In this document: positions 2,316 through 59,186 of the stretch, one piece after another
Layout of the letters: each line of letters begins with the position of its first letter
Numbering within the stretch: position 1 is the first letter of the stretch
NCBI RefSeq assembly: GCF_041381155.1
Contig: NC_091134.1
Coordinates: 71,569,469 to 71,633,468, forward strand
Source: Argopecten irradians
Taxonomy: Eukaryota > Mollusca > Bivalvia > Pectinida > Pectinidae
DNA length: 64,000 nucleotides
Reading direction: 5' to 3'
The notes under the pieces: model-generated
Database searches by the model: none
The model's input: only the letters and a program-made list of their open reading frames with translations
What the model was told of the DNA's origin: nothing
Program-made: the position numbers and the translations under genes

Positions 2316-3080
2316 ATGTCTGGTGTGGAGAGTCATATGAGTGTGGAAGATCATGACAATAATAGCAGTGACGTCATGTGCGACATCTGTCGATGCCAAT
2401 TTTCTCAAACCTGGCAGCTGTCCTTACATTTAAAGTCGCACAAAGGGGCGAAATCATTTCCGTGTGACGTGTGTGGGAAGAATTTGTCTAATAACAGTCA
2501 TTTGTCGGATCACATCAAAATACATAAAGAGGAAAATGTGACGTCTGTGGTAAGGTGTTTCCCAACCAAAAACGCCTGTCCGACATGTAAATAATGTAAA
2601 AGGGAGCATGTTGATACATGTCAGAATACATACAGGAGAGAAACCATTTAAATGTGATATCTGTGACAAAGAATTTACTTCAAAAATTCAACTTTGTAAA
2701 CATGTTAAACTACATTCAGGAGGGAAACCATTTAAATGTGATGTTTGTGGGAAGACATTTTCTTATAGAAGCTATCAGGTAAATCACGCCAGAATACATA
2801 CTGGGGTGAAACCATTTAAATGTGACATATGTGGTAAGGATTTTACTTTCAAATCTAGTCTTTTGAAGCACGTTAAAAGACATACAGGAAAGAAACCATT
2901 TAAGTGTGAAGTCTGTGGAAAGATGTTTTATGAGAAGAATGTCCTATCACGTCACATCAAAGTACATACCGAAGAGAAGATTAAGTGTGATACGTGTGGT
3001 AAAGAGAAAAGTAAAAGTGACAAACTGTCTAAACATATCCAACCCATATAAGGCAAAAGAGAATTAAGTGCTGCGACATC
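2316..3080 (+). pseudogene. C2H2 zinc-finger gene A, left part (split by an 8.2-kb insertion)
   Basis: Likely nuclear DNA-binding protein of the tandem C2H2 class. The start is Met at 2316, since an in-frame TGA at 2202-2204 precedes it. Two fingers (CDIC...HLKSH, CDVC...HIKIH) are followed by a damaged finger: a loss of about 8 bp near 2535-2540 and a second change near 2590-2605 shift the frame twice. Four clean fingers with TGEKP-type linkers follow (2608-2960). The next finger lacks the aromatic core residue, and near 3040-3046 a one-base change creates a stop at 3049. In the neighbouring frame the H-x3-H pair and then IKCCDI read on to 3080, exactly where the mobile element begins, and the same finger continues at 11281. 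The frameshifts could partly be sequencing errors, but the insertion is clear. As it stands the gene is probably dead or truncated. Confidence 0.8.
3072..3080. repeat. target-site duplication, left copy (TGCGACATC)
   Basis: The 9-bp word TGCGACATC directly precedes the element end GGAGGGCTGAAGTTGG. The same word directly follows the mirrored end at 11281-11289. It encodes Cys-Asp-Ile of a zinc finger. Confidence 0.9.
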
Positions 3081-4690
3081 GGAGGGCTGAAGTTGGTTGC
3101 GAGTTCCTAGTTCCTAGTTCCGTTTAATAAACGGAACTAGGAACCAGACCCGAGTTACGTTTAACTTAAACGGAACTAGGAACCAGACCCGAGTTCCGTT
3201 TAAGCTTATACGGAACTAGGAACCAGACCCGAGTTCCGTTTAACAAACATACTGGCCAACGAGCGGAGTTCCGTTTATTAGGATTCCTATCTCTCACTGC
3301 ATGTTCTATTACCTATTATATACAGGAATCGAACTTAGAGCTTCCATGAATAATACAGCACAGAATTAATCTCCTTAACACAAGTTTCCTTAAACGGATC
3401 TGACACCTAGACTCCAGTTCCGTTTAACTAAAACGGAACTAGGAACCAGACCCGAGTTCCGTTTAAGCTTATACGGAACTAGGAACCAGACCCGAGTTCC
3501 GTTTAAGCTTATACGGAACTAGGAACAAGACCCGAGTTCCGTTTAACAAACATACTGGCCAAATAGTGGAGTTCCGTTTATAAGGATTTCTACATCTTAT
3601 AAGATATTAAATAACATATGTTAGACAGGAATCTAGCTCTGAGCTTTCTGGAACGATACAACTTATACAATTTATCTCTATAACACAGATTTTCTTAAAC
3701 GGATCTGACACCTACATCCTAGTTCCGTTTAACTTAAACGGAACTAGAAACCAGACCTGAGTTCCGTTTAACACAAATATATTGGTCAATGAGTCGAGTT
3801 CCGTTTATTAGGATTTCTGCATCGTATAAGATATTAAATTCAAATGATATAAAGGAATCTAGCTCTGAGCTTTCAGGAATGATACAACAGAGAATTAATC
3901 TCTATAACACAGATTTTATCAAACGGATCTGACACCTAGACCATTCCGTTTTGCTTAAACGGAACTAGGAACCAGACCCTAGATCCGTTTAACACAAATA
4001 CTGGTCAACCAGCCGGATTCCGTTTATTAAAATTTCTACATGTAATAAGATGTTTAATTACCATTATAATTCTGAAATCGAACGTAAAGCTTCCATGAAT
4101 AATACAACACTTAATTAATCTTTATAACAGAATTTCTTCAGCGGGTTTGACACCTAGACCCCAGTTCCGTTTAACTAAATCGGAACTAGGAACCAGACCC
4201 GAGTTCCGTTAAACACAAATACTGGTCAACCAGCCGGGTTCCATTTATTAGAATATCTACCTCTAATAAAATGTTTAATTACCATTGTAATACAGGAATC
4301 GAACTTAAAGCTTCCATGAATAATACAACACAGAATTTCTTCAACGGGTTTGACACCTAGACCCTGGTTCCGTTTAACTTAAACGGAACTAGGAACCAGA
4401 CCCGGGTTCCGTTTAAGCTCAAACAGAACTAGGAACCATATTCGAGTTCCGTTTATTTGATCGGAACTAGGAACCAGACCCGAGGTCAGTTTAGAGCCGA
4501 CGCTTGCATAGATGTGACTTTTTTAGATTTATTTTTACAGGAATTGTCTTTGAAATTTCAGGACCATGTAATCAAAGTAAAAATCATTGCAGTGTAGATT
4601 TCTTTACACGAAGTCGACAACGAGACCTGTTCTGTTCTGTTTAATATTATGCGGATCTAGGAACTAGTTCCTAGTTCTGTTTAAGCCGAT
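3081..4690 (+). repeat. left inverted arm of the foldback element, tandem repeats
   Basis: About five units of roughly 200-305 bp, marked by GGATCTGACACCTAG-like words near 3396, 3701, 3924, 4145 and 4348. Each unit carries short subrepeats of AACGGAACTAGGAACC and GAGTTCCGTTTAA type, which are themselves partly palindromic. Units near the outer end match the right arm closely, and inner units are more diverged. A further decayed unit lies at about 5460-5625 beyond an inserted repeat. Confidence 0.85.
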
Positions 4691-4699
4691 GTTGGCCTA

Positions 4700-5450
4700 T
4701 ACATTGCCTTTAAAGACTTTAATGAATATCCTGATGCTTAATAGTGCCACGTATCGCAATACGGGTGCCTTATAGTAATCAGGTTGTCGGTCTATCTGTC
4801 CGTCCGTCTGTACGTCCGTCCGTCCGTCCGTCCGCCTGTCCTTTTTAGTTCTTTTTTTGTTACCAAGAAGTCTTAAATTGCAGATGTAGGTTACCTTAGT
4901 GCCCTTGTTCTGCATATTACATTTTTGGGCCAATCGGTCAATATGATGGCCGACAGAGAAACACCTTTGATTTTGGTAGTTGATATTTATCTCTATTAAG
5001 CACCAAAGGGATCTGTCTGAAATTTCAGAGGTTGGATTCCCTTAGGTTCCTAGTTGCGTATAAGGCATTTTTGAACCGATCTATCTACAAGAAACCCCCA
5101 AATGGGCCATACAACTCAATCAAACAAAATCAAATGATGGCCAAGAGGCAGCCATTTTGGATTTTAATATTTATTGTATAAAAAGCAGAGAAAATATTCC
5201 TCTTTCGTCAGACATACATCATTCTTTGGTACGCGCCAAGAATCCTCTAAGATATCTTGTAATATATACTGTCATCAATCATTTCGAAATCAGAGCTTCA
5301 ATTTTACATTCCATTGTCAATATGTTACTTTTCCTAATCGCAAAGCATCTTGAGCGGGGCCTATTTGAAGTGTCAGTATTCTAGTATTTTACAGTAATCG
5401 TCTTCGGAACCTTTAGGAACATATAATCACAGAAAAACTCAATATAGCGT
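4700..5450. repeat. decayed dispersed repeat with a TCCG microsatellite
   Basis: A (TCCG)n tract at about 4798-4840 is followed by sequence resembling the repeat at 25490-25790. Shared parts are a TCTCAAATTTCA/TCTGAAATTTCA stretch, an ATGGCC..GGCAGCCAT segment, and a closing GGCGCCAAGATCC/ACGCGCCAAGAATCC..GATATCTTGT. It interrupts the left arm of the foldback element. Small open frames here (for example 5157-5384) show no domain. Confidence 0.6.
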
Positions 5451-5649
5451 AGAAACGGAGTCGAAAAACCATGCCCGATTTCCGTTTAAGATCATACGAA
5501 TCTAGGAATTAGACCCGAGTTCCTTTTAACCCAACGCAATCAAATTCCATATTCAGTTCACGTACTTTTACTGACCAATGAGTTCGTTTATTATGATTCC
5601 CACGTGTAATAAGATGTTTAACTGGATATTTTCATTGGACAATATGACG

Positions 5650-8600
5650 GGTGTTTATCTAACAAGGAAAAGTGGTCAATGGCATTCATATCTTAACTCG
5701 ACTTATGAAGAAGAATTTTTCCTCATCTCGCACGCTTAAGTTAACCCTGTTGCACCTAAGTTTTGGTCAAAGGTTCAAGCCCCTGGTTATGCAATACACG
5801 ATAGACTGCCGTCCTCTTTGTCTGCTAAGCTTGAGTGTTGAACTCTGGAAACTTGGTCAATGAACCAGGTAGTGTTCGGCTCCAAGGAGCACCACACGAT
5901 GGAGAGGCTGTTGCTTCTCTCCATCCAGAATGTCATATATAAACTTGAAAACTTCTGCCCTGAACAGGACATTGAGAGGATTGGCTTCTTTGAAGGTGTC
6001 ATTACTCGTCAATGTCAGACGTGGTCCCTTCTGCCTTTTTTGAAGAGAATTCAGACGTTGAAGGCCATTACCTCACAGAGGTCAGCACCACCAAAAAAGA
6101 AGGCTAGAAATTCTGCTCCCACTGTTATATGCGACCGAAGTCAAAGCCTTATTTCAATGGTAACATTGGGAAGGGTAGGAAGAGTACAAACCATCATTTG
6201 GACAAGACGAAAAGTTCCTGATTCGTCTCTCCGTCCTTGATCGTTCCATACGAAAGGTCTGTTCTTGAGAATTCAGCCAGTCTCAGATTCAAGTCCTCCT
6301 CTCGTAAATTAGGGTTTGGGTAAGGCAACAATTCTCCATCTGTGAAGGTCTCGATATTCCTCGTTTTCATCTTCCTGTAGGAGATCGTCAGTCCACCTTC
6401 TAGAGTCAATGGAAGGATATCACCCAGGACCCTTGAGCCTTTTCTGTAGTGAAGGAGCGGTTTGGCATTCCATACTTGCGGCATCTGCACTTTGTGTCAA
6501 AGTATGTATTTTTTCCCTCCTTCGGGGGATCCGGAGATGGCAGTTTCCATCCGGGAGGAAGTAAGGACCATGCTTTTAAAGGGCGCGGGCGAGGAGGTGC
6601 CTATTATGGACTACACACTCGGCTTCTTTTCCAGAATAATTCTGATCCGCAAGAGGTTTGGAGTTTGGTGTCCCATCAACTGCTGCTGGTTGTAGTGTGA
6701 TTTCTGCACTCAAGGGAAGACATGTTCACAACTATGTCGACGAATTCTTAATGATCCATCTAGTTCGGGAATCTTTGGATCGGAACACCCGTCTGGTCAT
6801 GAAACTTTTGCTTAGAGTTGGCTTAGTTCCTTAAAGAGTATGAGGTTCCCCTTCTTAAAACATTGTCTTCTTGGGAAACCGTTTCCACGCGGTTCATGGT
6901 ATTGTCATTCCAACTTTGAAGAAATTCGAGAAGGCTAGAGATATTCCTCTGACCTTCATCGGCTGGCCCCTCGTTTGTCTCTAAATATTCTGTATTATCT
7001 CAACTCATGGGATTTGCGAGGTGGTGTACTCTGAAAGGCAATTACAAATGTATTTCAGGGGGTTTCGTTGTCGTCCATGCCAGCTCCCACCGTGAACATG
7101 TTCACGGATGCGTTCATGGAAGTGTTAGGGGCTTACCTCAACATCCATTGCCAGTCGATGGAGTGGTCTGGGGTACAAGCAGAAGATGATGGCTCTTCTG
7201 TTTTCTCTGCAGACATTTTAGAAGATTCTGCATTCCAATGCGGTTTGAATGGCTACGGACAACTCTACAGTGGTCGCTTATCTGGAGAGAAAGGGACACC
7301 AGCTCACGTCCTTTGTGTCCTCGCTATCAGTATATCCGTATATAATCCTATCTATAAGGAAATGCAGTTAACAATTTTAGTCAAGCATCTTCCAGGAAGC
7401 GCAAATGTTCTGGCGGATAATTTCCAGGCGGCGCCAGCTGGTTATGACAGAACGGCATCTATATCCCTCGACCTTTTTGCCTCTTTTCTCAATAATCAGT
7501 TGTCAACCTTTGTCCCTCCGTGGCAAACCAAATGGCTTGGGCCATGGACGCAGGGTTCTACAGAAGTTTCCGGAGCATTATTGCCCCTTCTTTCCGATAG
7601 CGCCACTGTTGCCGCGTCAACCCTGGTTTTCGGAGCTCTTGTCGTTTCTGGTGGCTCGTCCTCTGGTTCTCTCACCAAAACCAAATGTCTTTCGTTAGCA
7701 TCGGCCCCAGACGTTACCTTCACGCTTGGACGTGATTTCAGGAGTCCTAGCTCAGACAGGCTTTTCTTCGGATATGTCAGCTCGCATCGCCCGATCAATT
7801 AGGTCTTTCTCCTCTGCCGCCTACCAGTCACGCTGGAAGATCTTCTTTGATTGGCGTCAGGAAGATTGATCCGGTCATGGCCTCTGCCCAGCTGATTGCG
7901 AGTTTCCTTCTCTGTCTTGTTTAGGGAGCACAATCATGTACTATTGCAGGCTATCGCACAGCTATTGCCAGTGTACTTTCTTTCCGTGGTAGACCAGAGG
8001 TAGGATCTTCATTTCTTTGTCTGTCTTGATTCTGGGGTTCAATCTGGACAGGCCTAACGTACAGTAGTTAGCTCACAGTGGAACCTAGAACTCGTTTTAG
8101 AGTCATAAATGGGGGCTTCGGCTTCTAATGGGCCTTTAGGATCGGACTCCATAAAGTTTTTAACTTTTAAGACTGTCTTTTTGCTTGCTGTTGCCTCAGG
8201 CCACATGAGAAGTGATATTTATGCATTGTCTTTTCGCTCTTCGCGTATTTCATGGGCAAGAGCTAGATCTGCCGTTACCCTTCTCACTGATCCTGAAATT
8301 TGGGCAAAGAATTGGGAACCAGGTTTTTCGCCCCATTCCATTAGAATTCCTTTCCTGTCAGTCTCTATTGAGTCTGGGGAGAATTATCGGATGCTTTGTT
8401 CCTGTCGGGACCTTAAAACAGGGTCAGCAGGATATCTCCTTCCAGCCCATCTCCACATTGATATGTCAGGTGATCAAGATTGCTTATGAGCCGTCTAATG
8501 ATCAATCTCATGCGGAATGCAAGGTGAGGGCTCATGAGGTTAGAGCCCTTGCGACTTCTTTGGCTCTCCGCAATAGGTCCTTGTACCAGGACATCAATGT

Positions 8601-8930
8601 CTTCTGCCGTTTGGCGTGGTCAGTCTACTTTCACCTCCGGTCTCTGTCCTTCCACTCTGATGGACTGTTTTCTGTCTGTGACTGTTCCTCCTCAGTAGAC
8701 ATTATATGCATTTATGGTCTTTTAACCTTATGCGAGCAGGTTTCACAATGCTGCACCTCTTTCCACGGAGAGGTATATCCGTTTTTACCTTTGTTCATTC
8801 AACCCTGTTTTATATTCTCTGCCTGGGGCCTGTCCCCTACATTTACCATTTGACTGGGCTGCCTGGCTTCGGACTCGCCATTACGGTAAGAAAGACAAAT
8901 TCGCATACTAAAGTTATAGTAGCGTATTAC
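5650..8930 (+). mobile_element. DIRS-like retroelement fossil (broken)
   Basis: Recognisable blocks run in DIRS order on the plus strand. A gag-like stretch lies at about 5860-6240. The start of a DIRS-type reverse transcriptase (KGA..EVP then GFFSR) lies at about 6535-6695. An RNase H block lies at about 7080-7440, followed by an ADN-type segment and SLDLFAS. A tyrosine-recombinase-like block at about 7800-8620 includes an H-x-x-R motif within AHEVRALATSLA. The copy is clearly broken, with roughly ten or so interruptions, and is old. The split repeats expected at DIRS ends were not found. Its placement inside the foldback element suggests a nested insertion. Assignment rests on by-eye family motifs. 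Confidence 0.7.
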
Positions 8931-9004
8931 TGAAAAGAAATTGAGGTTTTTCAATGTAAAACCAATTTACATGATGTAAAACTAACAATGACTTTATGGG
9001 GTTC

Positions 9005-9660
9005 CACTCTTCTGTCCTCCCTCCCTTTCCTCCTCAGTCATTTGGCCTCGTGGCTACATAGAGGTGTTTAGGAAGGGACATCATTCTATATACTCTCGTC
9101 GAGTACGAAATAAGGTACGGTAGGGAGACGGGATTCTCAAATATAATGTTTTCAGGGCTATAAAAATTGGTGTATGTAGTGAATTTGAATTCTAAAGTTA
9201 TAGTAAGTATTATATCATGAAAGTGGCTTAACATTGAAAAAAACTCTAATTTCCTTATAAAAGACTTCTTCTCTAAAACTAAGCACGATATATAACAACT
9301 CATATTGCAAAGGTAGTATCTGTATGGGGTGAGGATACAAAATTATAAAAAGGGTGTGGCTTATCCCCTTGGGGGTCAATTTGTTTATTTCAATTTGTTT
9401 ATTTCCATATAAACGACTTTTTCTCTGAAATTAAGTATGGGATAGTACTCATATTGCGATGGTAGCATCCTTAAGGGAATTCAAAATTGTAAAAATGCTG
9501 GGACTGACTCTCTACCACTATTGATTAGCACTCATAATCATATGATATTGAAAGCATCATTATATGATGGAGATTTAAAATTAAGCAAATCGTGGAGCCT
9601 GTTTTGCTATTTCCAATTGTAAGAGTTTTTGTGACAATTACTTCATAAAACAGGTGATTC
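9005..9660 (+). mobile_element. decayed Helentron-like repeat, same family as 43331-44871
   Basis: Phrases such as ATATAAACGACTTTTTCTCTG, a GGTAGCATCCTTA word and a CAAAATTGTA word repeat with about 158-bp spacing, as in the array at 43.5-44.6 kb. The closing part (TTTGTGACAATTACTTC then ACAGGTGATTC, near 9617-9656) matches the 3' region of that element (about 44810-44842). It lacks the final hairpin, so it is truncated and old. Confidence 0.6.
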
Positions 9661-10035
9661 TTTGATCTATTTTGTTGACTCACGGAAGGATATTCTTAAA
9701 CAAGATCAATAGGTACAATGTACATGTATATTTCGAAGGCAGTTTTGGTATATGCTTGCAGTTCGATAAAATGCACATCAATTTAACAAGAATTTAAAAT
9801 ATCAGAAAAATATTAATTTGAAATACTCCTTCACATAAAAATAAAAATAAATGGAGAAAAATAATCTGGAAATCTAAATATTTCGATGAAACATTGTTAG
9901 ATTTAAAATTAAAAATACAATCCTTTTACCATGGGGATTAGATAAAGATATCTGTAAAAATCGTATGTACTGGGCTTAAACGGTCTAGATCTGTTGCCAA
10001 GAATTTCCATTTAATTTCAAAAGAATTCCGGTCTC

Positions 10036-10235
10036 ATTCATAAACGCCGCACGTCGCGTTATCGCATAACTTCACTCGGTCCTTTGGACCAGTTGAGCTA
10101 AAATGAGTAAATGCTATGGCAAGCCAATTTAAAATTTATTGAAGGAGCAAGGTCCATCCAGAATTTGATCGAATTATATAAGATATCATATATTATTATA
10201 TTCCATATCAGGCCCTTCGGGTCAGATGAGCTTTA
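10036..10235 (-). repeat. two fragmentary Helentron-like 5' ends, minus strand
   Basis: Read on the minus strand, 10103-10036 starts TTTTAGCTCAACTGGTCC and resembles the start of the element at 43331 (TTAGCTTACCTGGTCC). 10235-10205 gives AAAGCTCATCTGACCCGAAG, resembling the GGTCATCTGACC start at 16437. Both are short remains inside the foldback element. Confidence 0.5.
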
Positions 10236-10257
10236 CAAATGTCTATGCAAGCGTGGG

Positions 10258-11280
10258 GTTATACGGAACTCAGGTCTGGTTCCTAGTTCCGTATAAGTTT
10301 AAACGGAACTCGGGTCTGGTTCCTAGTTCCGTTTAAGTTAAACGGAACTGGAGTCTAGGTGTCAGATCCGTTTAAGGAAACTTGTGATAAGGAGATTAAT
10401 TCTGTGCTGTATTATTCATGGAAACTCTAAGTTCGATTCCTGTATATAATAGGTAATTGAACATGCAGTTAGAGATAGGAATCCTAATAAACGGAACTCC
10501 GCTCGTTGGCCAGTATGTTTGTTAAACGGAACTCGGGTCTGGTTCCTAGTTCCGTATAAGCTTAAACGGAACTCGGGTCTGGTTCCTAGTTCCGTTTAAG
10601 TTAAACGGAACTGGAGTCTAGGTGTCAGATCCGTTTAAGGAAACTTGTGATAAGGAGATTAATTCTGTGCTGTATTATTCATAGAAGCTCTAAGTTCGAT
10701 TCCTGTATATAATAGGTAATTGAACATGCAGTTAGAGATAGGAATCCTAATAAACGGAACTCCGCTCGTTGGCCAGTATGTTTGTTAAACGGAACTCGGG
10801 TCTGGTTCCTAGTTCCGTATAAGCTTAAACGGAACTCGGGTCTGGTTCCTAGTTCCGTTTAAGTTAAACAAAACTCGGGTCTGGTTCCTAGTTCCGTTTA
10901 AGTTAAACGGAACTCGGGTCTGGTTCCTAGTTCCGTTTTAGTTAAACGGAACTGGAGTCTAGGTGTCAGATCCGTTTAAAGAAACTTGTGATAAGGAGAT
11001 TAATTCTGTGCTGTATTATTCATGGAAACTCTAAGTTCGATTCCTGTATATAATAGGTAATTGAACATGCAGTTAGAGATAGGAATCCTAATAAACGGAA
11101 CTCCGCTCGTTGGCCAGTATGTTTGTTAAACGGAACTCGGGTCTGGTTCCTAGTTCCGTTTAAGTTAAACGGAACTCGGGTCTGGTTCCTAGTTCCGTTT
11201 AAGTTAAACGGAACTCGGGTCTGGTTCCTAGTTCCGTTTATTAAACGGAACTAGGAACTCGCAACCAACTTCAGCCCTCC
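10258..11280 (-). repeat. right inverted arm of the foldback element, tandem repeats
   Basis: Three long units are marked by GTCAGATCCGTTTAA at 10361, 10624 and 10965. The spacing is 263 and then 341 bp; the 78-bp difference equals two extra copies of a 39-bp subunit (AAACGGAACTCGGGTCTGG...). Units here are nearly identical to each other, unlike the decayed inner units of the left arm. The last bases before the target duplication mirror the left end. Confidence 0.9.
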
Positions 11281-11289
11281 TGCGACATC
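11281..11289. repeat. target-site duplication, right copy (TGCGACATC)
   Basis: Identical to 3072-3080 and directly abuts the CAGCCCTCC end of the foldback element. Confidence 0.9.
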
Positions 11290-12036
11290 TGTGGCAAGGG
11301 GTTTACAAGAAAAGCGGATTTAGAAAGACATATGAAAATTCATACAAGAAAGAAAGCAGCGGGTAAAAAGCCATTTAAGTGTAACATTTGTGAAAAGTGT
11401 TTTACAAGAGACAGCGATTTAACGAGACATACCAGACTCCATACAGGAGAGAAACCGTACAAGTGTGATTTCTGCAAAAGAACATTTTATGATAATTGTC
11501 GGCTAGCGAAACATGTACGAGAACATACAGGAGGAAGACAGTTTACGTGTGACATCTGTGACAAGACATTCTCAGTGAACTCCTCTCTACTGACACACTA
11601 CAGGACACATACGGGAGAGAACCCATTTTCTTGTGATATCTGTGGAAAGGGGTTTTCGACCAATCCACTGGTATTACGGCATGCTAAAACCCATTCTGAT
11701 GAGAACAAGTGTAACGTCTGTGATACGGGATTTACATCAAAGAATGCTTTGGTAAACCATGTCCGAAAACTACATTTAGGCGAGAGGCGGTTTAAATGCA
11801 ATACCTGTGATAGGAGGTGGTCTTCTAGGAATGATCTTTCGAAACATATGCTGACACATACAGGAGAGAAACCATTTCAGTGTGACATTTGTAACAGGGG
11901 CTTCACAAGACGTTCTGACTTGGAGAGACATTTCAGGATGCATACAGGAGAGACGCCGTATAAATGTAACTTCTGTGGGAAGGAATATGCCCAGCAGGCT
12001 GGCCTAGCATATCACGTAAGAATGCACACTGGATAG
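11281..12036 (+). CDS. C2H2 zinc-finger gene A, right part (nine fingers)
   Basis: The frame TGC GAC ATC TGT starts inside the right target duplication and runs without interruption to TAG at 12034-12036. Nine C2H2 fingers are visible, from CDICGKGF..HMKIH to CNFCGKEY..HVRMH. Most have TGEKP/TGERP-type linkers, and one has an unusual TRKKAAGKKPFK linker. The first finger has its start (K-C-C-D-I) at 3066-3080 on the far side of the insertion. If transcribed alone, the first Met is at 11332, which would omit finger one. Tandem C2H2 fingers predict nucleic-acid binding in the nucleus; the target is unknown. An AATAAA follows 170 bases after the stop. Whether this half is still expressed is unknown. 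Confidence 0.85.
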   Translation, partial: CDICGKGFTRKADLERHMKIHTRKKAAGKKPFKCNICEKCFTRDSDLTRHTRLHTGEKPYKCDFCKRTFYDNCRLAKHVREHTGGRQFTCDICDKTFSVNSSLLTHYRTHTGENPFSCDICGKGFSTNPLVLRHAKTHSDENKCNVCDTGFTSKNALVNHVRKLHLGERRFKCNTCDRRWSSRNDLSKHMLTHTGEKPFQCDICNRGFTRRSDLERHFRMHTGETPYKCNFCGKEYAQQAGLAYHVRMHTG

Positions 12037-17630: not shown

Positions 17631-17774
17631 TTAATGGTATGCTGGTGCTTTTATGGATCTTAATCATTATATTTATGCATCCATATTCACATATTGTATG
17701 TTTTACAACAATTTTTTGAGTGAAAATTTCAAAATTACATAATATTAGATAACTGATTGTCACTGATTGAACTA

Positions 17775-17790
17775 TATTGTTTTTGTACAG
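17775..17790 (+). promoter_or_regulatory. 3' splice site of gene B finger exon
   Basis: A pyrimidine-rich TTGTTTTTGTACAG ends at 17790. The exon then starts AAAGACCAAAAGACG and continues with GACACCGACCACGCG, homologous to the gene A 5' exon (GACACCGACCTGGCG at 2170) and followed in both by a CACACAGAGGAAGTGACG word. Confidence 0.65.
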
Positions 17791-17915
17791 AAAGACCAAA
17801 AGACGAATGCAGGACCAGACACCGACCACGCGTAATGCCACACAGAGGAAGTGACGTACATATTTACCAGTTTAGCTGCTGTAGTTACACAAGACAGACG
17901 TCCAGCGGGAGCAGT

Positions 17916-18965
17916 ATGGCCGATCAGATCCCTGTCAATAATAACACCAAAGTGATATGTGACATCTGTGGAAAGCAGTTCACCGAGAACCATCGTCTGT
18001 TGAGACATATGATAATGCACAGAAAGATGTCGTCTCTATGTGATATTTGTGGGCTCCAGTTTTCCCACAACACTCATCTTTCGAAACACTTGAAAACACA
18101 CAAAGTGGGGAAGCCATTTCAGTGTGACGTATGTGGGAAGAATTGTTTTAATAACAGTTACCTGTCCGATCACATAAAGAAACATACAGGAGAGAAATCA
18201 TTTAAATGTGACGTCTGCTATAAGGAATTTTATAGGAACAGCCATGTTATTGAACATATCAAGTCAGTACATAAGGGAGAGAAACCATTCAAGTGTGACA
18301 TTTGTGAAAAACAGTTTCCTTTTCGGAGATTTCTTTCGTATCATATTAGTAGATGCCATTCTGGAGAAAAAACATTCAGGTGTGAAATATGTGAGTATCA
18401 ATTTTCGACGGAAGTGGACCTTAAACGTCATTTAAGGAAACATAAAAAACAAACGTCATTTAAATGTGATGTCTGTCGTAAAAGTTTTTCTCGTATTGGT
18501 AACCTGTCTCTCCATATCAGGACGGTACATAACGGAGAGGAGCTTTACAAGTGTGACATATGTGGGAGAAACTTTCCACACAAGACCAGTTTATTGACAC
18601 ATTTGCAGAGGCATTCAAAAGACAAAACGTTTACCTGCAACGTATGTGGAAAGGAGTTTTATGTAAAACAAGACATGTTGACACATGCTAAGATACATTC
18701 AGGAGCAAAACCATTTAAATGCGATGTTTGCGGTGGTCTGTTTACAATGAAAACGAGTCTGATGAATCATATCAAAATACATACAGGAGAGAAACCATTT
18801 AAATGTGACGAATGTGGGATGGAGTTTTTAAGACGTGCAAGTCTGATAATACATATTAGGACACATACCGGAGAGAAACCATTTAAATGTGACATCTGCG
18901 AGAAAACTTTTTCTCAAAAAACTCATTTGACGACACACATTAAAATACATAAAGGGGCCATTTAA
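17916..18965 (+). CDS. C2H2 zinc-finger protein, gene B (12 fingers, 349 aa)
   Basis: Predicted nuclear nucleic-acid-binding protein. Twelve C2H2 fingers occupy about residues 15-344, starting CDICGKQF..HMIMH and ending CDICEKTF..HIKIH. Fingers 4, 5 and 7 have H-x4-H spacing. Linkers are partly canonical TGEKPF (more so at the C-terminal end) and partly diverged (RKMSSL, KKQTSF, NGEELY). There is no KRAB, BTB, SCAN or other N-terminal domain within the exon. I chose Met at 17916 because the homologous upstream sequence in gene A is untranslated. The frame is, however, open back to the splice site at 17791, so an upstream exon could add residues. No frameshift is seen. It is the best-preserved relative of gene A. 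A specific orthologue cannot be named. Confidence 0.9.
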   Translation: MADQIPVNNNTKVICDICGKQFTENHRLLRHMIMHRKMSSLCDICGLQFSHNTHLSKHLKTHKVGKPFQCDVCGKNCFNNSYLSDHIKKHTGEKSFKCDVCYKEFYRNSHVIEHIKSVHKGEKPFKCDICEKQFPFRRFLSYHISRCHSGEKTFRCEICEYQFSTEVDLKRHLRKHKKQTSFKCDVCRKSFSRIGNLSLHIRTVHNGEELYKCDICGRNFPHKTSLLTHLQRHSKDKTFTCNVCGKEFYVKQDMLTHAKIHSGAKPFKCDVCGGLFTMKTSLMNHIKIHTGEKPFKCDECGMEFLRRASLIIHIRTHTGEKPFKCDICEKTFSQKTHLTTHIKIHKGAI

Positions 18966-19130: not shown

Positions 19131-22100
19131 TTTTACACTATGTTTCCGGCGGTCACGGCAGTCCTGTTTCAGGCCACCGTGGTGACCGCGTGACAACGTG
19201 AGACAACGTAGGATGACATGATAGACAAACATGAGCGGCCGTGATTACCGTGGATGCCGTGCCAATTATTTATTAATGCTAGGTTTACACTATGTTCCCG
19301 GCGATCACGGTAGCCCCGTTTGCCCGAAACGTGGTGCGCCGTGGAATTTTGGCTATTTTTGTCTCTGTATTCAAGTTGAGCTAGGTCTTGTGAAGTTTTA
19401 CGGATTACGTCATGGACCGTGGATATACGGGAAAGTGCTGTTCCGGGAGGTTAAAGGTACACTACGGCTTTAGCACGGTCTATCAAGGATACCACTACGT
19501 TCTCACTAGGCCTGTTACGATCTGATGAGGTCTGCTACGTTTTACACGTTTTGATCAAGCTCCGATACGTTTTTCACGGTCCGCCAAGGCTTACTAGGGA
19601 TGAAAGTCTGATACCGGGATTTTTTTGAAGCAAATGAAACAATATTTATTGCCGAAAATGTCATTTCAAACACATTTTAATTACAAATTATATTTGGTAT
19701 AAATATATAATTATTATAGCCAAGTGTTTTTACGCCATTTTTTTCTGTAATGGTTAATCACTTAATTGTCTTTTGCAATAATAGCTTTTGTATAATTTGA
19801 TGGTTTTAATGTGTTTGATAATGACTATTTCTATTTAATAATACAAATAATCCATGAAGTAGCAAATATGTACCAGGCCAGGCAATGATACTTCATCAGA
19901 TATTGGTTTCAACGTAAGAATGTAATAAGACGTAACACGCCGTATCACGTCGGCCTTTCAATCGCTAAAAGCCGTGATGTGCCTTGACAGAACGTATCGA
20001 AACGGTTATCATCCACCTTGGCTTGCCGTCAAAACCTTGACAAACCTTAACAAAACGGCACAAAACGTGCAGCCAATCTGCATCAACCGTGATAAAACGT
20101 GGAAAAAACGCAACAGAACGTCACAAAACTTGAAATCACCGTTAGATTCCGGGAAACGTGCTTGCTGCCCGTTCCACCACGGACCGTCTGGAAGTTTTGT
20201 TACGGCCTCGCACGCATTGTTACGTTTTGTTACGTCAATCCCGTTTTATGACGTCCTGTGGCGTTTACCATCTGTACCGTGACTGCCGTGGCAAATTTTT
20301 TGACAGTTTAAAAATCTGGCACGGCATCCACGGTAATCACGACCGCTCACGTTTGTCTATCACGTCCTTCTGCGTTGTCTCAAGTTGTCTCGCGGTCACC
20401 ACGTTTTGTCCACGGTGGCCCGAAACGGGGCTGCCGTGGCCGCCGGGAACATAGTGTAAACCTAGCATAAACTATCACAAAAAATTGCCACGGCAGTCAC
20501 GGTACAGATGGTGAACGTAACAGGACGTAATCAAACGGGATTGACGCAACCAAACGTAACAGTGCCGAGTGCGTACGAGGCTGTAACAGAACTTGCAGAC
20601 GGTCCGTGATGGAACGTGCATCAAGCACGTTCCCCGGCATCTCACGGTGCTTTCAAGTTTTGCAACGTTCTGTTGCATTTTCCGCATTTCATTTCGGTTA
20701 ATGCAGATTGGCTACACGCTTTGTCCCGTTTTGTTCAGGTTTGTCACGGTTTCCACGGCTAGCCAAGGTCGATGATAGCCGTTTCGAAGCGTTTTGTAAA
20801 GGTACATCGCGGTTAAATGCCCGACGCGCTACGTCCTATTACGGCCTTATTGACGACAATATATGACGGAGTATCGTTTCCTGGCTTGGTGCATATGTGA
20901 TAATTCTTGGAATTACTTGTATAAATGAATAGAAATAGTCATTATCAAGCATATTTTAACCATCAAATTGTACTAAAGCTAATATTACAAAAAGCAAATT
21001 AAGTAAGAACCATTACAGAACAAATTGTTGTGCATAGAAACACTTGGCCATATTAACTTTTGATGTCCTTAGTGACGATTTTATTGCGATTCTCAATCTT
21101 GATGCTGATGTTGAGCATTCAACAATGAACAACACCATTGTGAACTATATAATGTATCCATATCTAACAGCAGAATCAAAATAACCCCACTTGCACGATG
21201 TTTTGGTGCATTAATAGTAAAAATCAGAAAAAATAGTTGTTTTAGGCCCAACAGAAAATAATTCAAATAGAAACAGATCTGAAATAATGTCACATGGATT
21301 GGGTTTTTTATTGCAACGACGAACACTGATAAATTGTCTTAGACAACGGTAACTTAACTGCTGAGCAGCTTCCTGTGTTACTTAGATGCTACGCAGCACA
21401 TTAAATATAAATTAATTATATTTTTATGCCAAATATAGCATAGATTTTTTTCTTTTAACACATTTTGTAATCCAAATATGTTAAATGAAATTTTCGACAA
21501 TAGATATTCTGAATATTCAATTTCTACTTTTATGCTCTGGGCATAAACCTGCCCCAAAGAAGCCCGGCAATTCTAGTTAGCCTTGGAGGACCGTGAAAGA
21601 GGTAAGAGCTTTATCAAAACATACAAAACGTATAGACCTCATCAGATCGTAACGGGCCTAGACCAAGCGATGATACTCCATATATTGCTTGCAACGTAAG
21701 ACCGTAATTGGGCGCAACACGTCGTAGCACGTCGGACTTTCAACCGCTACAAGCCGTGATGTGCCTTGACAGAACGCATCGAAACGGCTACCATCCACCT
21801 TGGCTTGCCGAGATAATCGTGCCAAACCTGGATAAAACGGGACAAAACGTGCAGCTAATCTGCATCAACCGTGATAGAACGTGGAAAAAAACCGCAACAG
21901 AACTTTACAAAACTTGAAAGCACCGTGAGTTGACGGGAAACGTGCTTGCTGCCCGTTCCATCACGGACCGTCTGCAAGTTCTGTTACGGCTCCGTACGCA
22001 CTGTTAAGTTTTGTTGCGTTAATTCCGTTTTATTACGTCGTGTTTAGTTTACCATCGGTACTGTGACTGTCGTGGCATTTTTAGCTCACCTGGCCCGAGC

Positions 22101-23690
22101 TTATGTCATGGCGCGGCGTCCGTCGTCCTTCGTCCGTCCGTCCGTCCGTCTGTCCGTCAACATTTCCTTTAAATCGCTACTAGTCATAGAGTTCTGCATG
22201 GATTGTAACCAAATTTGGCCACAAACATACTTGGGGGAGGGGAACAGAACTTGTATAAATTTTGGCTCTGACCCCCCGGGGCAGGAGGGGCGGGGCCCAA
22301 TAGGGAAAATAGAGGTAAATCCTTTAAATCACTACTTGTCCTAGAGTTCTGCATGGATTGTAACCAAATTTGGCCACAAACATCCTTGGGGGAAGGGGAA
22401 CAGAACTTGTATAAATTTTGGCTCTGACCCCCCGGGGGCAGGAGGGGCGGGGCCCAATAGGGGAAATAGAGGTAAATCCTATAAATCGCTACTTGTCCTA
22501 GAGTTCTGCATGGATTGTGACCAAATTTGGCCATAAACATCCTTAGGGGAAGGGGACAGAACTTGTATAAATTTTGGCTCTGATCCCTCGGGGGCTGGAG
22601 GGGCGGGGCCCAATAGGGGGAATAGAGGTAAATCCTTTAAATTGCTACTAGTCATAGAGTTCTGCATGGATTGTAACCAAATTTGGCCACAAACATACTT
22701 GGGGGTAGGGAAACAGAATTTGTATAAATTTTGACTCTGGCCCCCCGAGGGCTGGAGGGGTGGGGCCCAATAGGGGAAATAGAGGTAAATTCTTTAAATC
22801 GCTACTAGTCATAGAGTTCTGCATGGAATGTAATCAAATTTGGCCAGAAGTATCCTTGGGAGAATAAGAACTGAGTTTGTATAAATTTTGGCTCTGGTCC
22901 CCGGGGGCAGGAGGGACGGAGACCAATAGGGGAATTATAGGTAAATCCTATAAATCGGTTCTTGTCCTAGAGTTGTGCATGGATTGTAACCAAATTGGGC
23001 CACAAACTTCCTCGGGGGAAGGGGAACAGAACTTGTATAAATTTTGGCTCTGACACCCCGGGGGCAGGAGAGTTGGGGCCCAATAGGGGAAATAGAATGA
23101 AATTCTTTAAATCGCTACTGGTCATAGAGTTCTGCATGGAATGTAACCAAATTTGGCCACAGACATCCTTTGTGGAAGGGGAACAGAACTTGTATAAATT
23201 TTGGCTCTGGCCCCCTGGGGGCAGGACGGGTGGGGCCCAATAGGGAAAATAGAGGTAAATCCCATAAATCGCTACTTGTCCTAGAGTTTTGCTTAGATGG
23301 TGTCCAAATTTGGCCATAAACATCCTTGGGGGAAGGGGAACAGAACTTGTATAAATTTTGGCTCTGACCCCCAGGGGGCAGGAGGGGTGGGACCCAATAG
23401 GGGATTTAGAGGTTAATATTAAAATTCCTTCAGAAAAGAAACAATGAACTTGTATTCAGAACATTACTTTACATTACAAACCAGGTGAGCTATACAGGTC
23501 CTCATGGCCTCTTGTTTATTGACAGTTTAAAAATCTGGCACAGCATCCACGGTAATCACGGCCGCTCACGTTTGTCTATCACGTCCTCCTGCGTTGTCTC
23601 GCGTTGTGTCGTGGTCACCACGTTCTGTCCACGGTGGCCTGAAACGGGGCTGCGTTACCGGCGGGAACATAGGGTAAACCTAGCATTAGG
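19131..23690. mobile_element. CACGG/CCGTG-rich inverted-repeat element complex
   Basis: GCTAGGTTTACACTATGTTC at 19277 is mirrored by a GAACATAGTGTAAACCTAGC end at 20447-20466 and again, slightly changed, by GAACATAGGGTAAACC at 23665-23680. Another end-like piece starts at 19133. Internal sequence is dense in ACGT- and CCGTG-type words. The segment 19900-20340 recurs in direct orientation at 21660-22080 plus 23518-23600, and in inverted orientation at about 20480-20870. I read this as two or three copies of one TIR-bearing family, partly nested. No transposase is seen. Small open frames over it carry no domain. Confidence 0.6.
22081..23517 (+). mobile_element. Helentron-like non-autonomous element 2 (156-bp array)
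   Basis: It starts TTAGCTCACCTGG with a (TCCG)n segment and contains about eight units of ~156 bp marked by AGAGTTCTGCATGGA (about 22187, 22343, 22500, 22656 and on). It ends with CAGGTGAGCTATACAGG, then a GGTCCTCATGGCC hairpin and TCTTGTTT. The start and end words AGCTCACCTGG and CCAGGTGAGC are inverted. It interrupts a copy of the CACGG-rich family. The uninterrupted paralogue at about 20289-20310 marks the empty site. Minus-strand Pro-rich open frames are repeat shadows. Confidence 0.8.
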
Positions 23691-26689: not shown

Positions 26690-29600
26690 CCTGAGACAGA
26701 AGCCGCATCTGATGTGGAGCTTGCCTGGATTGATACAGAGCCGCATCTGATGTGGAGTTTGCCCCGAATGAGACAGAAACCGCATCTGATCTGGAGCTTG
26801 CCGGGAATGAGTCAAAAGCCGCATCTGATGTGGAGCTTGCCTGGATTGATACAGTTGCCGCATCTGATGTGGAGCTTGCCCCGAATGAGACAGAAGCCGC
26901 ACCTGATGTGGAGCTTGCCCCGAATGAGACAGACGCCACATCTGATATGGAGCTTGCCCCGAATAAGACAGAAGCCGCATAGAATGCGGAGCTTGCCTGG
27001 ATTGATACAGAAGCCGCATCTGATGTAGCGTTTGCCTGGAATGAGACAGAAGCCGCACCTGATGTGGAGCTTGCCCCGAATGAGACAGAAGCCGCATCTG
27101 ATGTGGAGCTTGCCTGGAATGAGACAGAAGCCGCATCTGATGTGGAGCTTGCCTGGAATGAGACAGAAGCCACATCTGATGTGGAGCTTGCCCTGAATGA
27201 GACAGAAGCCGCATCTGATGTGGAACTTGTCTGGAATGAGACAGAAGCCACATCTGATGTGGAGCTTGCCCCGAATGAGACAGAAGCCACATCTGATGTG
27301 GAGCTTGCCCCGAATGAGACAGAAGCCGAATCTGATGTGGAGCTTGCCCGGAATGAGACAGAAGCCGCATCTGATGTAGCGTTTGCCTGGAATGAGACAG
27401 TAGCCGCATCTGATGTGGCGTTTGCCAGGAATAAGACAGAAGCCGCATCTGATGTGGAACTTGCCCCGAATGAGACTGAAGCCGCAGCTGATGTTGAGCT
27501 TGCCCCGAATGAGACAGAAGCCGCATCTGATGTGGAGCTTGCCTGGATTGATACAGAAGCCGCATCTGATGTGGAGCTTGCACGAAATGAGACAGAAGTC
27601 GCATCTGATGTGGAGCTTGCCCAAAATGAGAGAGAAGCCGCATCTGATGTGGCGTTTGCCTGGAATAAGACAAAAGCCGCACCTGATGTGGAGCTTGCCC
27701 CGAATGAGACAGAAACCGCATCTGATGTGGAGCTTGCCTGGAATGAGACAGAAGCCGCATCTGATGTGGAACTTGCCCCGAATTAGACTGAAGCCGCAGC
27801 TGATGTTGAGCTTGCCCGAATTAATACAGAAGCCGCATCTGATATGGAGCTTGCACGGAATGAGACAGAAGTCGCATCTGATGTGAAGCTTGCCCGGAAT
27901 GATACAGAAGCCGCATCTGATGTGGAGCTTGCCCAAAATGAGACAGAAGCCGCATCTGATGTGGAGCTTTCCTGGATTGATACAGAAGCCGCATCTGATG
28001 TGGCGTTTGCCCGGAATAAGATAGAAGCTGCATCTGATGTGGAGCTTGCATGGATTAATACAGAAGCTGCATCTGATGTGGCGTTTGCTCGAATTGATAC
28101 AGAAGCCGCATCTGATGTGGACCTTGCACGGAATGAGACAGAAGCCGCATCTGATGTGGAGCTTGCCTGGATTGATACAGAAGCCGCATCTGTTGTGGAC
28201 CTTGCCCCCAATGAGACAGAAGCCGCATCTGATGTGGAGCTTTCCTGGAATGACAGAAGCCACAGAAGCCGCATCTGATGTGGAGCTTTCCTGGATTGAC
28301 ACAGAAGCCGCATCTGATGTGGCGTTTGCCCGGAATGAGACAGAAGCTGCATCTGATGTGGAGCTTGCCTGGATTGATACAGAAGCCGCATCTGATGTGG
28401 CGCTTGCACGGAATGAGACAGAAGCCGCATCTGATGTGGAGCTTGCCTGGATTGATTCAGAAGCCGCATCTGATGTGGACCTTGCCCCCAATGAGACAGA
28501 AGCCGCATCTGATGTGGAGCTTTCCTGGATTGATACAGAAGCCGCATCTGATGTGGCGTTTGCCCGGAATGAGACAGAAGCTGCATCTGATGTGGAGCTT
28601 GCCTGGATTGATACAGAAGCCGCATCTGATGTGGAGCTTGCCCCGAATGAGACTGAAGCTGCACCTGATGTGGAGTTTGCCCCGAATGAGTCAGAAGCCG
28701 CATTTGACGTTGAGCTTGCCCCCAATGAGACAGAAGCCGCATCTGATGTGGAACTTGCCTGGATTGATACAAATATCCGCATCTGATGTGGAACTTGTAC
28801 GGAATGAGTCAGAAGCCGCATTTGACGTTGAGCTTGCCCCCAATGAGACAGAAGCCGCATCTGATGTGGAACTTGCCTGGATTGATACAAATAGCCGCAT
28901 CTGATGTGGAGCTTGCCCCGAATGAGACTGAAGCCGCATCTCGTGTGGAGCTTGCCACGAATGAGACAGAAGCCACATCTGATGTGGAGCTTGCCCCGAA
29001 TGAGGCAGAAGCCGCATCTGATGTGAAGCTTGCCCCGAATGAGACAGAAGCCACATCTGTGGTGGAGATTGCCCGGATTGAGTCAGAAGCCGCATCTGAT
29101 ATGGAGCTTGCCTGGATTGATACAGAAGCCGCACCTGATGTGGAGCTTGCCCCGAATGAGACAGAAGCCGCATTCGATGTGGAGCTAGCCCCGAATGAGA
29201 CAGAAGCCGCATCTGATGTGGAGCTTGCCCCCAATGAGACAGAAGACGCATCTGATGTGGAGCTTGCCTGGATTGATACAGAAGCCGCATCTGATGTGGC
29301 GTTTGCCCGGAATGAGACAGAAGCTGCATCTGATGTGGAGCTTGCCTGGATTGATACAGAAGCCGCATCTGATGTGGAGCTTGCCTCGAATGAGACTGAA
29401 GCTGCACCTGATGTGGAGCTTGCCCCGAATGAGTCAGAAGCCGCATCTGATGTGGAGCTTGCACGGAATGAGTCAGAAGCCGCATCTGATGTTGAACTTG
29501 CCTGGAATGAGTCAGAAGCCGCATCTGATGTTGAGCTTGCCCCCAATGAGACAGAAGCCGCATCTGATGTGGAACTTGCCTGGATTGATACAAATAGCCG

Positions 29601-32600
29601 CATCTGATGTGGAGCTTGCCCCGAATGAGACTGAAGCCGCATCTCGTGTGGAGCTTGCCACGAATGAGACAGAAGCCGCATCTGATGTGGAGCTTGCCCC
29701 GAATGAGGCAGAAGCCATATCTGATGTGGAGCTTGCCCCGAATGAGACAGAAGCCGCATCTGTGGTGGAGATTGCCCGGATTGAGTCAGAAGCCGCATCT
29801 GATTTGGAGCTTGCCTGGATTGATACAGAAGCCGCGCCTGATGTGGAGCTTGCCCCGAATGAGACAGTAGCCGCATCCGATGTGGAGCTAGCCCCGAATG
29901 AGACAGAAACCGCATCTAATGTGGAGCTTGCCCGAATTAATACAAAAGCCGCATCTGATGTGGAGCTTGCCTTGAATGACACAGAAGCCACATCTGTTGT
30001 GGAGCTTGCCTGGAATGAGACAGAAGCCGCATCTGATATGGAGCTTGCCTGGATTGATACAGAAGCCGCATCTGATGTGGCGTTTGCCCGGAATGAGACA
30101 GAAGCCGCATCTGATGTGGAGCTTGCCTGGATTGATACAGAAGCCGTATCTGATGTGGACCTTGCCCCCAATGAGACAGAAGCCGCATCTGATGTGGAGC
30201 TTTCCTGGATTGATACAGAAGCCGCATCTGATGTGGCGTTTGCCCGGAATGAGACAGAAGCTGCATCTGATGTGGAGCTTGCCTGGATTGATACAGAAGC
30301 CGCATCTGATGTGGAGCTTGCCCCGAATGAGACTGAAGCTGCACCTGATGTGGAGTTTGCCCCGAATGAGACAGAAGCCACATCTGATGTGGAGCTTGTA
30401 CGGAATGAGTCAGAAGCCGCATCTGATGTTGAGCTTGCCCCCAATGAGACAGAAGCCGCATCTGATGTGGAACTTGCCTGGATTGATACAAATAGCCGCA
30501 TCTGATGTGGAGCTTGCCCCGAATGAGACTGAAGCCGCATCTCGGGTGGAGCTTGCCACGAATGAGACAGAAGCCACATCTGATGTGGAGCTTGCCCCGA
30601 ATGAGGCAGAAGCCGCATCTGATGTGGAGCTTGCCCCGAATGAGACAGAAGCCGCATCTATGGTGGAGATTGCCCGGATTGAGTCAGAAGCCGCATCTGA
30701 TGTGGAGCTTGCCTGGATTGATACAGAAGCCGCACCTGATGTGGAGCTTGCCCAGAATGAGACAGAAGCCGCATCTGATGTGGCGTTTGCCCGGAATGAG
30801 ACAGAAGCTGCATCTGATGTGGAGCTTGCCTGGATTGATACAGAAGCCGCATCTGATGTGGAGCTTGCCTCGAATGAGACTGAAGCTGCACCTGATGTGG
30901 AGCTTGCCCCGAATGAGTCAGAAGCCGCATCTGATGTGGAACTTGCCTGGAATGAGTCAGAAGCCGCATCTGATGTTGAGCTTGCCCCAAATGAGACAGA
31001 AGCCGCATCTGATGTGGAACTTGCCTGGATTGATACAAATAGCCGCATCTGATGTGGAGCTTGTCCCGAATGAGACTGAAGCCGCATCTCGTGTGGAGCT
31101 TGCCACGAATGAGACAGAAGCCGCATTTGATGTGGAGCTTGCCCCGAATGAGGCAGAAGCCATATCTGATGTGGAGCTTGCCCCGAATGAGACAGAAGCC
31201 GCATCTGTGGTGGAGATTGCCCGGATTGAGTCAGAAGCCGCATCTGATTTGGAGCTTGCCTGGATTGATACAGAAGCCGCACCTGATGTGGAGCTTGCCC
31301 AGAATGAGACAGAAGCCGCATCTGATGTGGCGTTTGCCCGGAATGAGACAGAAGCTGCATCTGATGTGGAGCTTGCCTGGATTGATACAGAAGCCGCATC
31401 TGATGTGGAGCTTGCCTCGAATGAGTCAGAAGCCGCATCTGATGTGGAACTTGCCTGGAATGAGTCAGAAGCCGCATCTGATGTTGAGCTTGCCCCCAAT
31501 GAGACAGAAGCCGCATCTGATGTGGAACTTGCCTGGATTGATACAAATAGCCGCATCTGATGTGGAACTTGCCCCGAATGAGACTGAAGCCGCATCTCGT
31601 GTGGAGCTTGCCACGAATGAGACAGAAGCCGCATCTGATGTGGAGCTTGCCCCGAATGAGGCCGAAGCCATATCTGATGTGGAGCTTGCCCCGAATGAGA
31701 CAGAAGCCGCATCTGTGGTGGAGATTGCCCGGATTGAGTCAGAAGCCGCATCTGATTTGGAGCTTGCCTGGATTGATACAGAAGCCGCACCTGATGTGGA
31801 GCTTGCCCCGAATGAGTCAGAAGCCGCATCTGATGTGGAACTTGCCTGGAATGAGTCAGAAGCCGCATCTGATGTTGAGCTTGCCCCCAATGAGACAGAA
31901 GCCGCATCTGATGTGGAACTTGCCTGGATTGATACAAATAGCCGCATCTGATGTGGAGCTTGCCCCGAATGAGACTGAAGCCGCATCTCGTGTGGAGCTT
32001 GCCACGAATGAGACAGAAGCCGCATCTGATGTGGAGCTTGCCCCGAATGAGGCAGAAGCCATATATGATGTGGAGCTTGCCCCGAATGAGACAGAAGCCG
32101 CATCTGTGGTGGAGATTGCCCGGATTGAGTCAGAAGCCGCATCTGATTTGGAGCTTGCCTGGATTGATACAGAAGCCGCGCCTGATGTGGAGCTTGCCCC
32201 GAATGAGACAGAAGCCGCATCCGATGTGGAGCTAGCCCCGAATGAGACAGAAGCCGCATCTAATGTGGAGCTTGCCCGAATTAATACAGAAGCCGCATCT
32301 GATGTGGAGCTTGCCTTGAATGACACAGAAGCCACATCTGTTGTGGAGCTTGCCTGGAATGAGACAGAAGCCTCATCTGATATGGAGCTTGCCTGGATTG
32401 AGACAGAAGCCACATCTGGTGTGGAGCTTGCCCGGAATGAGACAGAAGGCGCATCTGATGTGGAGCTTGCCTGGATTGAGACAGAAGCCGCATCTGTTGT
32501 GGAGCTTGCTCGTTATAAGTCAGATGCCGCATCTGATGTGGAACTTGCCCGGATTGAGACAGAAGCCGCATCTGATGTGGCGTTTGCCCGGATTGAGACA

Positions 32601-33612
32601 GAAGCTGCATCTGATGTGGAGCTTGCCTGGATTGATACAGAAGCCGCATCTGATGTGGAGCTTGCCTCGAATGAGACTGAAGCCGCACCTGATGTGGAGC
32701 TTGCCCCGAATGAGTCAGAAGCCGCATCTGATGTTGAGCTTGCCCCCAATGAGACAGAAGCCGCATCTGATGTGGAGCTTGCCTGGATTGATACAAATAG
32801 CCGCATCTGATGTGGAGCTTGCCTCGAATGAGACTGAAGCCGCATCTGATGTGGAACTTGCCTGGAATGAGTCAGAAACCGCATCTGATGTTGAGCTTGC
32901 CCCCAATGAGACAGAAGCCGCATCTGATGTGGAGCTTGCCTGGATTGATACAAATAGCCGCATCTGATGTGGAGCTTGCCCCGAATGAGACTGAAGCCGC
33001 ATCTCGTGTGGAGCTTGCCACGAATGAGACAGAAGCCGCATCTGATGTGGAGCTTGCCCCGAATGAGGCAGAAGCCATATCTGATGTGGAGCTTGCCCCG
33101 AATGAGACAGAAGCCGCATCTGTGGTGGAGATTGCCCGGATTGAGTCAGAAGCCGCATCTGATTTGGAGCTTGCCTGGATTGATACAGAAGCCGCGCCTG
33201 ATGTGGAGCTTGCCCCGAATGAGACAGAAGCCGCATCCGATGTGGAGCTAGCCCCGAATGAGACAGAAGCCGCATCTAATGTGGAGCTTGCCCGAATTAA
33301 TACAGAAGCCGCATCTGATGTGGAGCTTGCCTTGAATGACACAGAAGCCACATCTGTTGTGGAGCTTGCCTGGAATGAGACAGAAGCCTCATCTGATATG
33401 GAGCTTGCCTGGATTGAGACAGAAGCCACATCTGGTGTGGAGCTTGCCCGGAATGAGACAGAAGGCGCATCTGATGTGGAGCTTGCCTGGATTGAGACAG
33501 AAGCCGCATCTGTTGTGGAGCTTGCTCGTTATAAGTCAGATGCCGCATCTGATGTGGAACTTGCCCGGATTGAGACAGAAGCCGCATCTGATGTGGCGTT
33601 TGCCTGGATTCT
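26690..33612. repeat. 39-bp minisatellite, ~177 units (6.9 kb)
   Basis: The unit reads GCATCTGATGTGGAGCTTGC then CCCGAATGAGACAGAAGCC. Because 39 is a multiple of three and the unit lacks stops in most frames, long open frames exist on both strands (for example a 13-residue ASDVELAPNETEA period on plus and ASVSFGASSTSDA on minus). Variants (CCTGGATTGATACAG, GGCGTTTGCC, TCCTGGAATG, ATTGAGTCAG) recur in blocks, giving a higher-order structure. Units with ATACAAATAGCC (one base longer) at about 28885, 29587, 30487, 31033, 31543, 31933, 32793 and 32951 shift the frame and end the plus-strand open frames. No single frame spans the array, which argues against a gene. Confidence 0.9.
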
Positions 33613-36917: not shown

Positions 36918-36972
36918 AATGACCAAGAGACGCATCCCAGACATACCAGTGTATTAGCTGACTTCTATAGAA

Positions 36973-39857: not shown

Positions 39858-40223
39858 GAAATATCGATATACCTGTCCACCTAACTGGCCCATGTAAGAT
39901 TCTTTTTCTCCCATACTTTAGCAAGAAATGGTAAAAATTCAGTAGACATGAATGTCGTTGTGCGTAAAAGTGGTAGCTGCATGTATTGATGATGTTACTG
40001 TCTAGCGCATGTGAGCTGTCTTTTCCCTACCCTGGTAAAAGAAATATCGATATACCTGTCCACCTGACTGGCCCATGTAAGATTCTTTTTCTCCCATACT
40101 TTAGCAAGAAATGGTAAAAATTCAGTAGACATGAATGTCGTTGTGCGTAAAAGTGGTAGCTGCATGTATTGATGATGTTACTGTCTAGCGCATGTGAGCT
40201 GTCTTTTCCCTACCCTGGTAAAA
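39858..40223. repeat. tandem duplication, 183-bp period
   Basis: GAAATATCGATATACCTGTC occurs at 39858 and 40041. The two 183-bp copies are almost identical up to CCCTACCCTGGTAAAAG, implying a recent duplication or an assembly error. Confidence 0.85.
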
Positions 40224-40653
40224 GACAGAGTTATCTTTTCCCTAGCAACCGCGGGATAACCCTGTCAAGTATGGAAGAAAAATGAAACAACCATAGTTTC
40301 AAGGTCAGACCAACTGACCATTGATATGCACTAAATCATAGCTTTGACTAATACTGATGCCAATATAATATACCTGGCCTGTTGTAATATCATTTAATTG
40401 TATTACTATTATATGTATAAGTAAAATTGCCACAAGTGTCATGTAAATTTTGACAGAATTCAGTATTTCAGTATTGTATTATAACTCATGGCATTTTAGA
40501 ATAATTACTAGCACTAGTATTTACTGTCTACGTGTACTTTTATATATTAATTATTTATTTTGTTTCACTTAGAGAGTGAAATGTTTCAATATTAATGTTT
40601 TATTCATTTAGAATTTTTTCCAAATCAATTTGTTTGTTTGATGTAAAACTTAA

Positions 40654-58521: not shown

Positions 58522-58588
58522 TGGTTCAATAACATGCTCCAATTTCTGTTGACTTGTTACCCTCTCTTTTAGATCATTCTTGGTATTT

Positions 58589-59177: not shown

Positions 59178-59186
59178 ACTTGCACC

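Follow-up and report, generated by a model that had tools for sequence, protein, structure and literature searches.

The window analyzed here, a 64,000-nucleotide stretch of the Argopecten irradians genome (contig NC_091134.1, positions 71,569,469 to 71,633,468), contains an 8,200-bp foldback element at positions 3081 to 11280, which separates two halves of a C2H2 zinc-finger locus. This arrangement is very probably the product of the insertion of a non-autonomous foldback DNA transposon, by a DDE-type cut-and-paste transposase, into the codons of finger 9 of a gene with about 17 fingers. No other explanation is nearly as simple as a single insertion into a single array, because the duplicated 9-mer is rare, it abuts the element tips, the finger spacing is near normal across the insertion point, and the two halves carry complementary gene ends.

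Boundaries, target-site duplication, and arms of the element

The element is bordered by two copies of a 9-bp target-site duplication, TGCGACATC, at 3072 to 3080, where it forms the Cys-Asp-Ile codons of finger 9, and at 11281 to 11289 (no strand is assigned to the element, to the duplication copies, or to the non-coding parts of its middle). Each copy adjoins its tip without a gap. The tips are inverted repeats that are identical at 21 of 21 bp, and the left tip, GGAGGGCTGAAGTTGGTTGCG, carries 7 extra bases (a repeated AGTTCCT) after the outermost 21 bp. When up to 3 mismatches were allowed, the tip sequence GGAGGGCTGAAGTTGG was found in the window only at 3081 to 3096 on the plus strand and at 11265 to 11280 on the minus strand. 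The original prediction of an 8.2-kb element with inverted termini and a precise 9-bp duplication at both ends is borne out by these perfect, window-unique tips and their flanks. A C precedes each duplication copy. Formally, then, the duplication could be 10 bp long and the tips shifted by one base, but a 9-bp duplication beside perfectly matching tips is simpler. Two positions drawn at random, one from each flank, would share the same 9-mer with a probability of 1.3e-4. For two finger starts that are already in phase, identical 9-mers occur in 2.2% of finger pairs, and TGCGACATC is present at only 1 of 49 other finger starts. A third copy, at 2379, belongs to finger 1 of the same split array. 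Beside the left duplication, TGC is doubled within 3069 to 3080 (AAG TGC TGC GAC ATC).

Both arms have approximate inner ends. The left arm (3081 to 4500, plus strand, about 1.4 kb) is built from modules of about 39 to 40 bp, together with higher-order units of 221 to 303 bp, and the right arm (10257 to 11280, minus strand, about 1.0 kb) contains the left-arm modules in inverted orientation along with 263-bp units, two of which are identical at 258 of 263 positions in a direct comparison. In both arms the module is self-complementary and reads AGTTCCGTTTAA followed by TTAAACGGAACT; in the left arm it can also be written AGTTCCGTTTAA..TTAAACGGAACTAGGAACCAGACCCG. Aligned over their outer 455 nt, the arms show 433 matches, 12 mismatches, and 20 gap columns (97.3%), and without gaps the longest inverted pairing between them extends for 379 nt at 98% identity. 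Similarity drops to 78 to 85% among the inner units of the left arm, so the outer parts are either young or homogenized by gene conversion, and with homogenization possible, the 2.7% divergence between the arms is only a rough guide to age. Each arm folds strongly by itself, with z values of -12.1 and -13.0 (a control segment within the middle scored -2.7), owing to the self-complementarity of the modules. The foldback nature claimed for the element is thus confirmed by its inverted modular arms, by the 379 nt of pairing, and by their self-folding. An assembly artifact is an unlikely origin for this structure, since the two arms are 2.7% diverged and have unequal numbers of units, and the duplication is in register. 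Exact searches of a viral contig collection with the tip and the module returned no copy.

Modular inverted arms that fold on themselves and on each other, with a duplication of 8 to 10 bp that is usually 9 bp long, are the features of FB-like foldback elements, and all of these were found here. A duplication of about 9 bp also fits Mutator-like elements (MULEs), although it is not specific to them. A Mutator/FB-type assignment is likely but unproven; since no transposase was detected, it draws solely on the duplication length and the arm architecture. We infer that a DDE-type transposase, presumably supplied in trans and most probably by a Mutator/FB-type element, would have cut the target with a 9-bp stagger and joined the element, leaving the duplication. 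The composite arms would act as transposase-binding and foldback sequence, and the middle would be passenger DNA made up of nested or captured repeats. Such an event would have parted the start and first 8 fingers of the gene from its last 9 fingers and stop, thereby disrupting it.

The split zinc-finger locus and alternative explanations

The 5' half of the locus (2316 to 3071, plus strand) contains an ATG (2316) with a 21-residue leader, followed by eight fingers whose starts lie at 2379, 2463, 2537 (damaged), 2653, 2737, 2821, 2905, and 2986 (damaged), and it has no gene end. The 3' half (11281 to 12036, plus strand) comprises a single open frame with nine intact fingers and a stop at 12034 to 12036, and it has neither a leader nor a start codon ahead of its first finger; the frame runs back into the transposon arm, also without an ATG, as TELGTRNQLQPS-CDICGKGF. 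In contrast, each of the three other zinc-finger genes in the window has its leader, its fingers, and its end together within a single open frame. The fingers are tandem C-x2-C-x12-H-x3-4-H units at 84-nt spacing, as is characteristic of C2H2 genes. Once the insert is removed, finger 8 is followed by finger 9 at 86 nt, compared with 84 nt in most of the array, and this distance would be 83 nt without the doubled TGC. Translation recovered the frames that had been reported from the letters alone, I-K-C-C-D-I out of the left flank and C-D-I-C-G-K-G-F into the right flank, and the 8 plus 9 recognizable fingers match the predicted total of about 17. The right half had no match among the viral contigs.

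The proposal that the two loci are halves of one gene holds for the ancestral array and fails for a gene that is intact at present. The left half contains three frame breaks, at about 2531 to 2537, 2577 to 2590, and 3040 to 3062, such that three frames are used in turn: one by fingers 1 and 2, a second by the damaged finger 3 (2537), and a third by fingers 4 to 8. Finger 8 (2986) is without the usual aromatic residue and second His, and the frame changes further between this finger and the left duplication. An intron was rejected as the cause of the first break because 2537 to 2590 still reads as a finger (CDVCGKVFPNQKRLSDH). Given the three frame breaks and the damage to fingers 3 and 8, the present locus is no better than a split pseudogene, or else it carries assembly indels. 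The breaks may have arisen before the insertion or after it, or may be assembly indels, and their distribution, three in the left half and none in the right, involves too few events to decide among these.

Several observations weigh against the favored reading: no frame of the middle yielded a transposase, the joined flanks do not form one open frame but have stops in every frame, and the doubled TGC beside the left duplication is not what a simple insertion would leave in a canonical finger, which means that the original site either was a non-canonical finger start or was changed at insertion. The element could also have landed in a locus that was already dead as a pseudogene, in which case nothing functional was broken. 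This is a serious possibility, to which we give somewhat less than even weight. The frame breaks and damaged fingers of the left half speak for it, whereas the right half, although cut off from its start, is still fully open, the 2.7% arm divergence leaves time for decay after the insertion, and sequencing indels could also account for the breaks. A different question is whether the mover belonged to another superfamily that makes 8- to 9-bp duplications, such as Merlin, KDZ, hAT, or P/Galileo, rather than to Mutator/FB. We regard this as rather unlikely: the duplication is exactly 9 bp, and MULEs are present in mollusc genomes (PMC10294476), but no transposase was found, the foldback form may arise from different lineages, including the P-type Galileo, and Merlin and Zisupton-like elements have been reported in molluscs.

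Explanations that dispense with a single interrupted array fare worse. With three more zinc-finger genes in the window, zinc-finger neighbors are expected, and finger codons are alike; two independent genes might therefore flank the element by chance, with a 9-mer match that comes from conserved Cys-Asp-Ile codons. That is highly improbable, since neither half is complete (the left has no end, and the right has no leader or ATG), the spacing falls to 86 nt after removal of the element, and exact 9-mer matches between fingers are as rare as the 1 of 49 starts and 2.2% of pairs given above. It is only marginally easier to envisage that two foldback copies in different zinc-finger genes recombined, joining the 5' part of one gene to the 3' part of the other. 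Foldback elements are associated with rearrangements (PMC4079207), and similar fingers lie nearby: left fingers 1 and 2 are closest to fingers 2 and 3 of the gene at 17.8 to 19.0 kb, whereas the right fingers resemble other genes. Such a recombinant would usually have two different 9-bp flanks, however, and the flanks here are identical and in finger phase. There is also a very slim chance of gene fission, in which the nine-finger right half would be expressed alone, driven by a promoter that lies within the arm of the transposon; if true, a new, shortened zinc-finger protein would have been created with its transcription start provided by the element.

As an insertion into one array, the locus is a clean case in which a coding exon is disrupted by a large foldback element and the duplication makes it possible to infer the original gene. 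It also cautions annotators that adjacent zinc-finger "genes" may be pieces of a single gene. Should the insertion prove polymorphic, it would offer a simple marker for transposon inactivation of zinc-finger genes, and the tip and module sequences can be used to catalogue the foldback family.

Middle domain and other features of the window

The middle of the element consists of a part without recognizable coding (4501 to 5700), a heavily decayed retroelement-like stretch (5700 to 8880, plus strand; motifs seen by eye only), and a further non-coding part (8881 to 10256). Segments at 4803 to 4983 and 5129 to 5201 resemble DNA at 25.5 to 25.7 kb of the window, and 9246 to 9657 is 70 to 82% like a tandem repeat at 43.5 to 44.8 kb, a pattern that nested or captured repeats would be expected to give. 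A Pfam search of the six frames of the middle (4500 to 10250) matched no family and revealed no recognizable transposase. Inspection by eye of about 5.7 to 8.9 kb on the plus strand suggested reverse transcriptase, RNase H, and DIRS-type tyrosine-recombinase motifs in shifting frames, including the fragments MATDNSTVVAYLERKG, HLPGSANVLAD, TIAGYRTAIASVLSFRG, and VRAHEVRALATSLAL. Frame-fused pieces of this stretch gave nothing significant against Pfam, PHROGs, PDB, phage records, or viral and prokaryote contigs. A decayed DIRS-type tyrosine-recombinase retroelement in the middle is thus an impression by eye, for which every statistical test failed. DIRS elements occur in molluscs, and DIRS1-like elements have inverted terminal repeats and an internal complementary region and produce no target-site duplication (PMC3266345). 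The decayed motifs are a likeness to this group; the 9-bp duplication rules out the whole element as a DIRS1-like retrotransposon, and because DIRS insertion leaves no such duplication, a DIRS piece could only be a passenger and not the mover.

The split locus forms a cluster with the three other C2H2 genes, at 17757 to 18965 (plus strand), 36958 to 38580 (plus strand), and 57580 to 58629 (minus strand), which have 12, 12, and 10 fingers, respectively. The second of these has a low-complexity tail at 38181 to 38517 that consists of 27/54-bp coding repeats (EKPSSLDN-like units). Minisatellites occupy 26692 to 33608 (about 177 copies of a 39-bp unit), 45254 to 51472 (49 bp × 127, 96% matches), and 53195 to 57616 (47 bp × 94, 96% matches), with the end of the last array falling right where the zinc-finger gene at 57580 to 58629 has its 3' end. 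As 39 is a multiple of 3, the first array has long open frames on both strands that would be miscalled as genes. Complex inverted and direct repeats (79 to 91%) at 19132 to 23688 surround a 157-bp tandem array (22165 to 23417) and may be another compound transposable element. A 183-bp tandem duplication at 39858 to 40225, with two copies that are 99% identical, is apparently recent, and a short sequence at 59185 to 59575 with 92-bp inverted ends (86% identical) resembles a miniature inverted-repeat transposable element. Rfam and tRNA scans of the window found none.

Comparison with known foldback systems

The element is apparently uncatalogued but of an ordinary kind, as judged by setting it beside the descriptions of known families. 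The FB and FB-NOF elements of Drosophila make 9-bp duplications. They share with the element described here long arms of short tandem repeats, this duplication length, and a variable middle; they differ in that no NOF-like transposase was found here, and the arm repeats are unrelated as far as can be seen. Galileo, which has a P-type transposase and makes a 7-bp duplication, is unlike the element in both respects. As a foldback member of the P superfamily, it nevertheless has long inverted termini with internal repeats (PMC3573991). Foldback arms are thought to bring extra transposase-binding sites, as discussed for Galileo and Tetris (PMC4079207). Foldback elements are usually non-autonomous, with 8- to 10-bp duplications and non-coding middles, and most of them seem to be related to Mutator, although exceptions exist (PMC4079207). 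Tetris of Drosophila virilis is a foldback element with modular arms that contain repeats of about 220 bp, 8- to 10-bp duplications, a non-coding middle domain free of open reading frames, and no known transposase (PMC4079207); in all of these it resembles the element, whereas its host and sequence are different. Satellite arrays have arisen from the arms of Tetris. The Tm1 family of root-knot nematodes, a Mutator/Foldback family with composite arms and mostly 9-bp duplications (PMC3169594), is likewise similar, with arms of tandem internal motifs, many members without a transposase, and nested insertions in the middle. Compared by description only, Tm1 has motifs of about 14 bp in elements of 1 to 3 kb, whereas the element reported here has self-complementary modules of about 39 to 40 bp within 8.2 kb.
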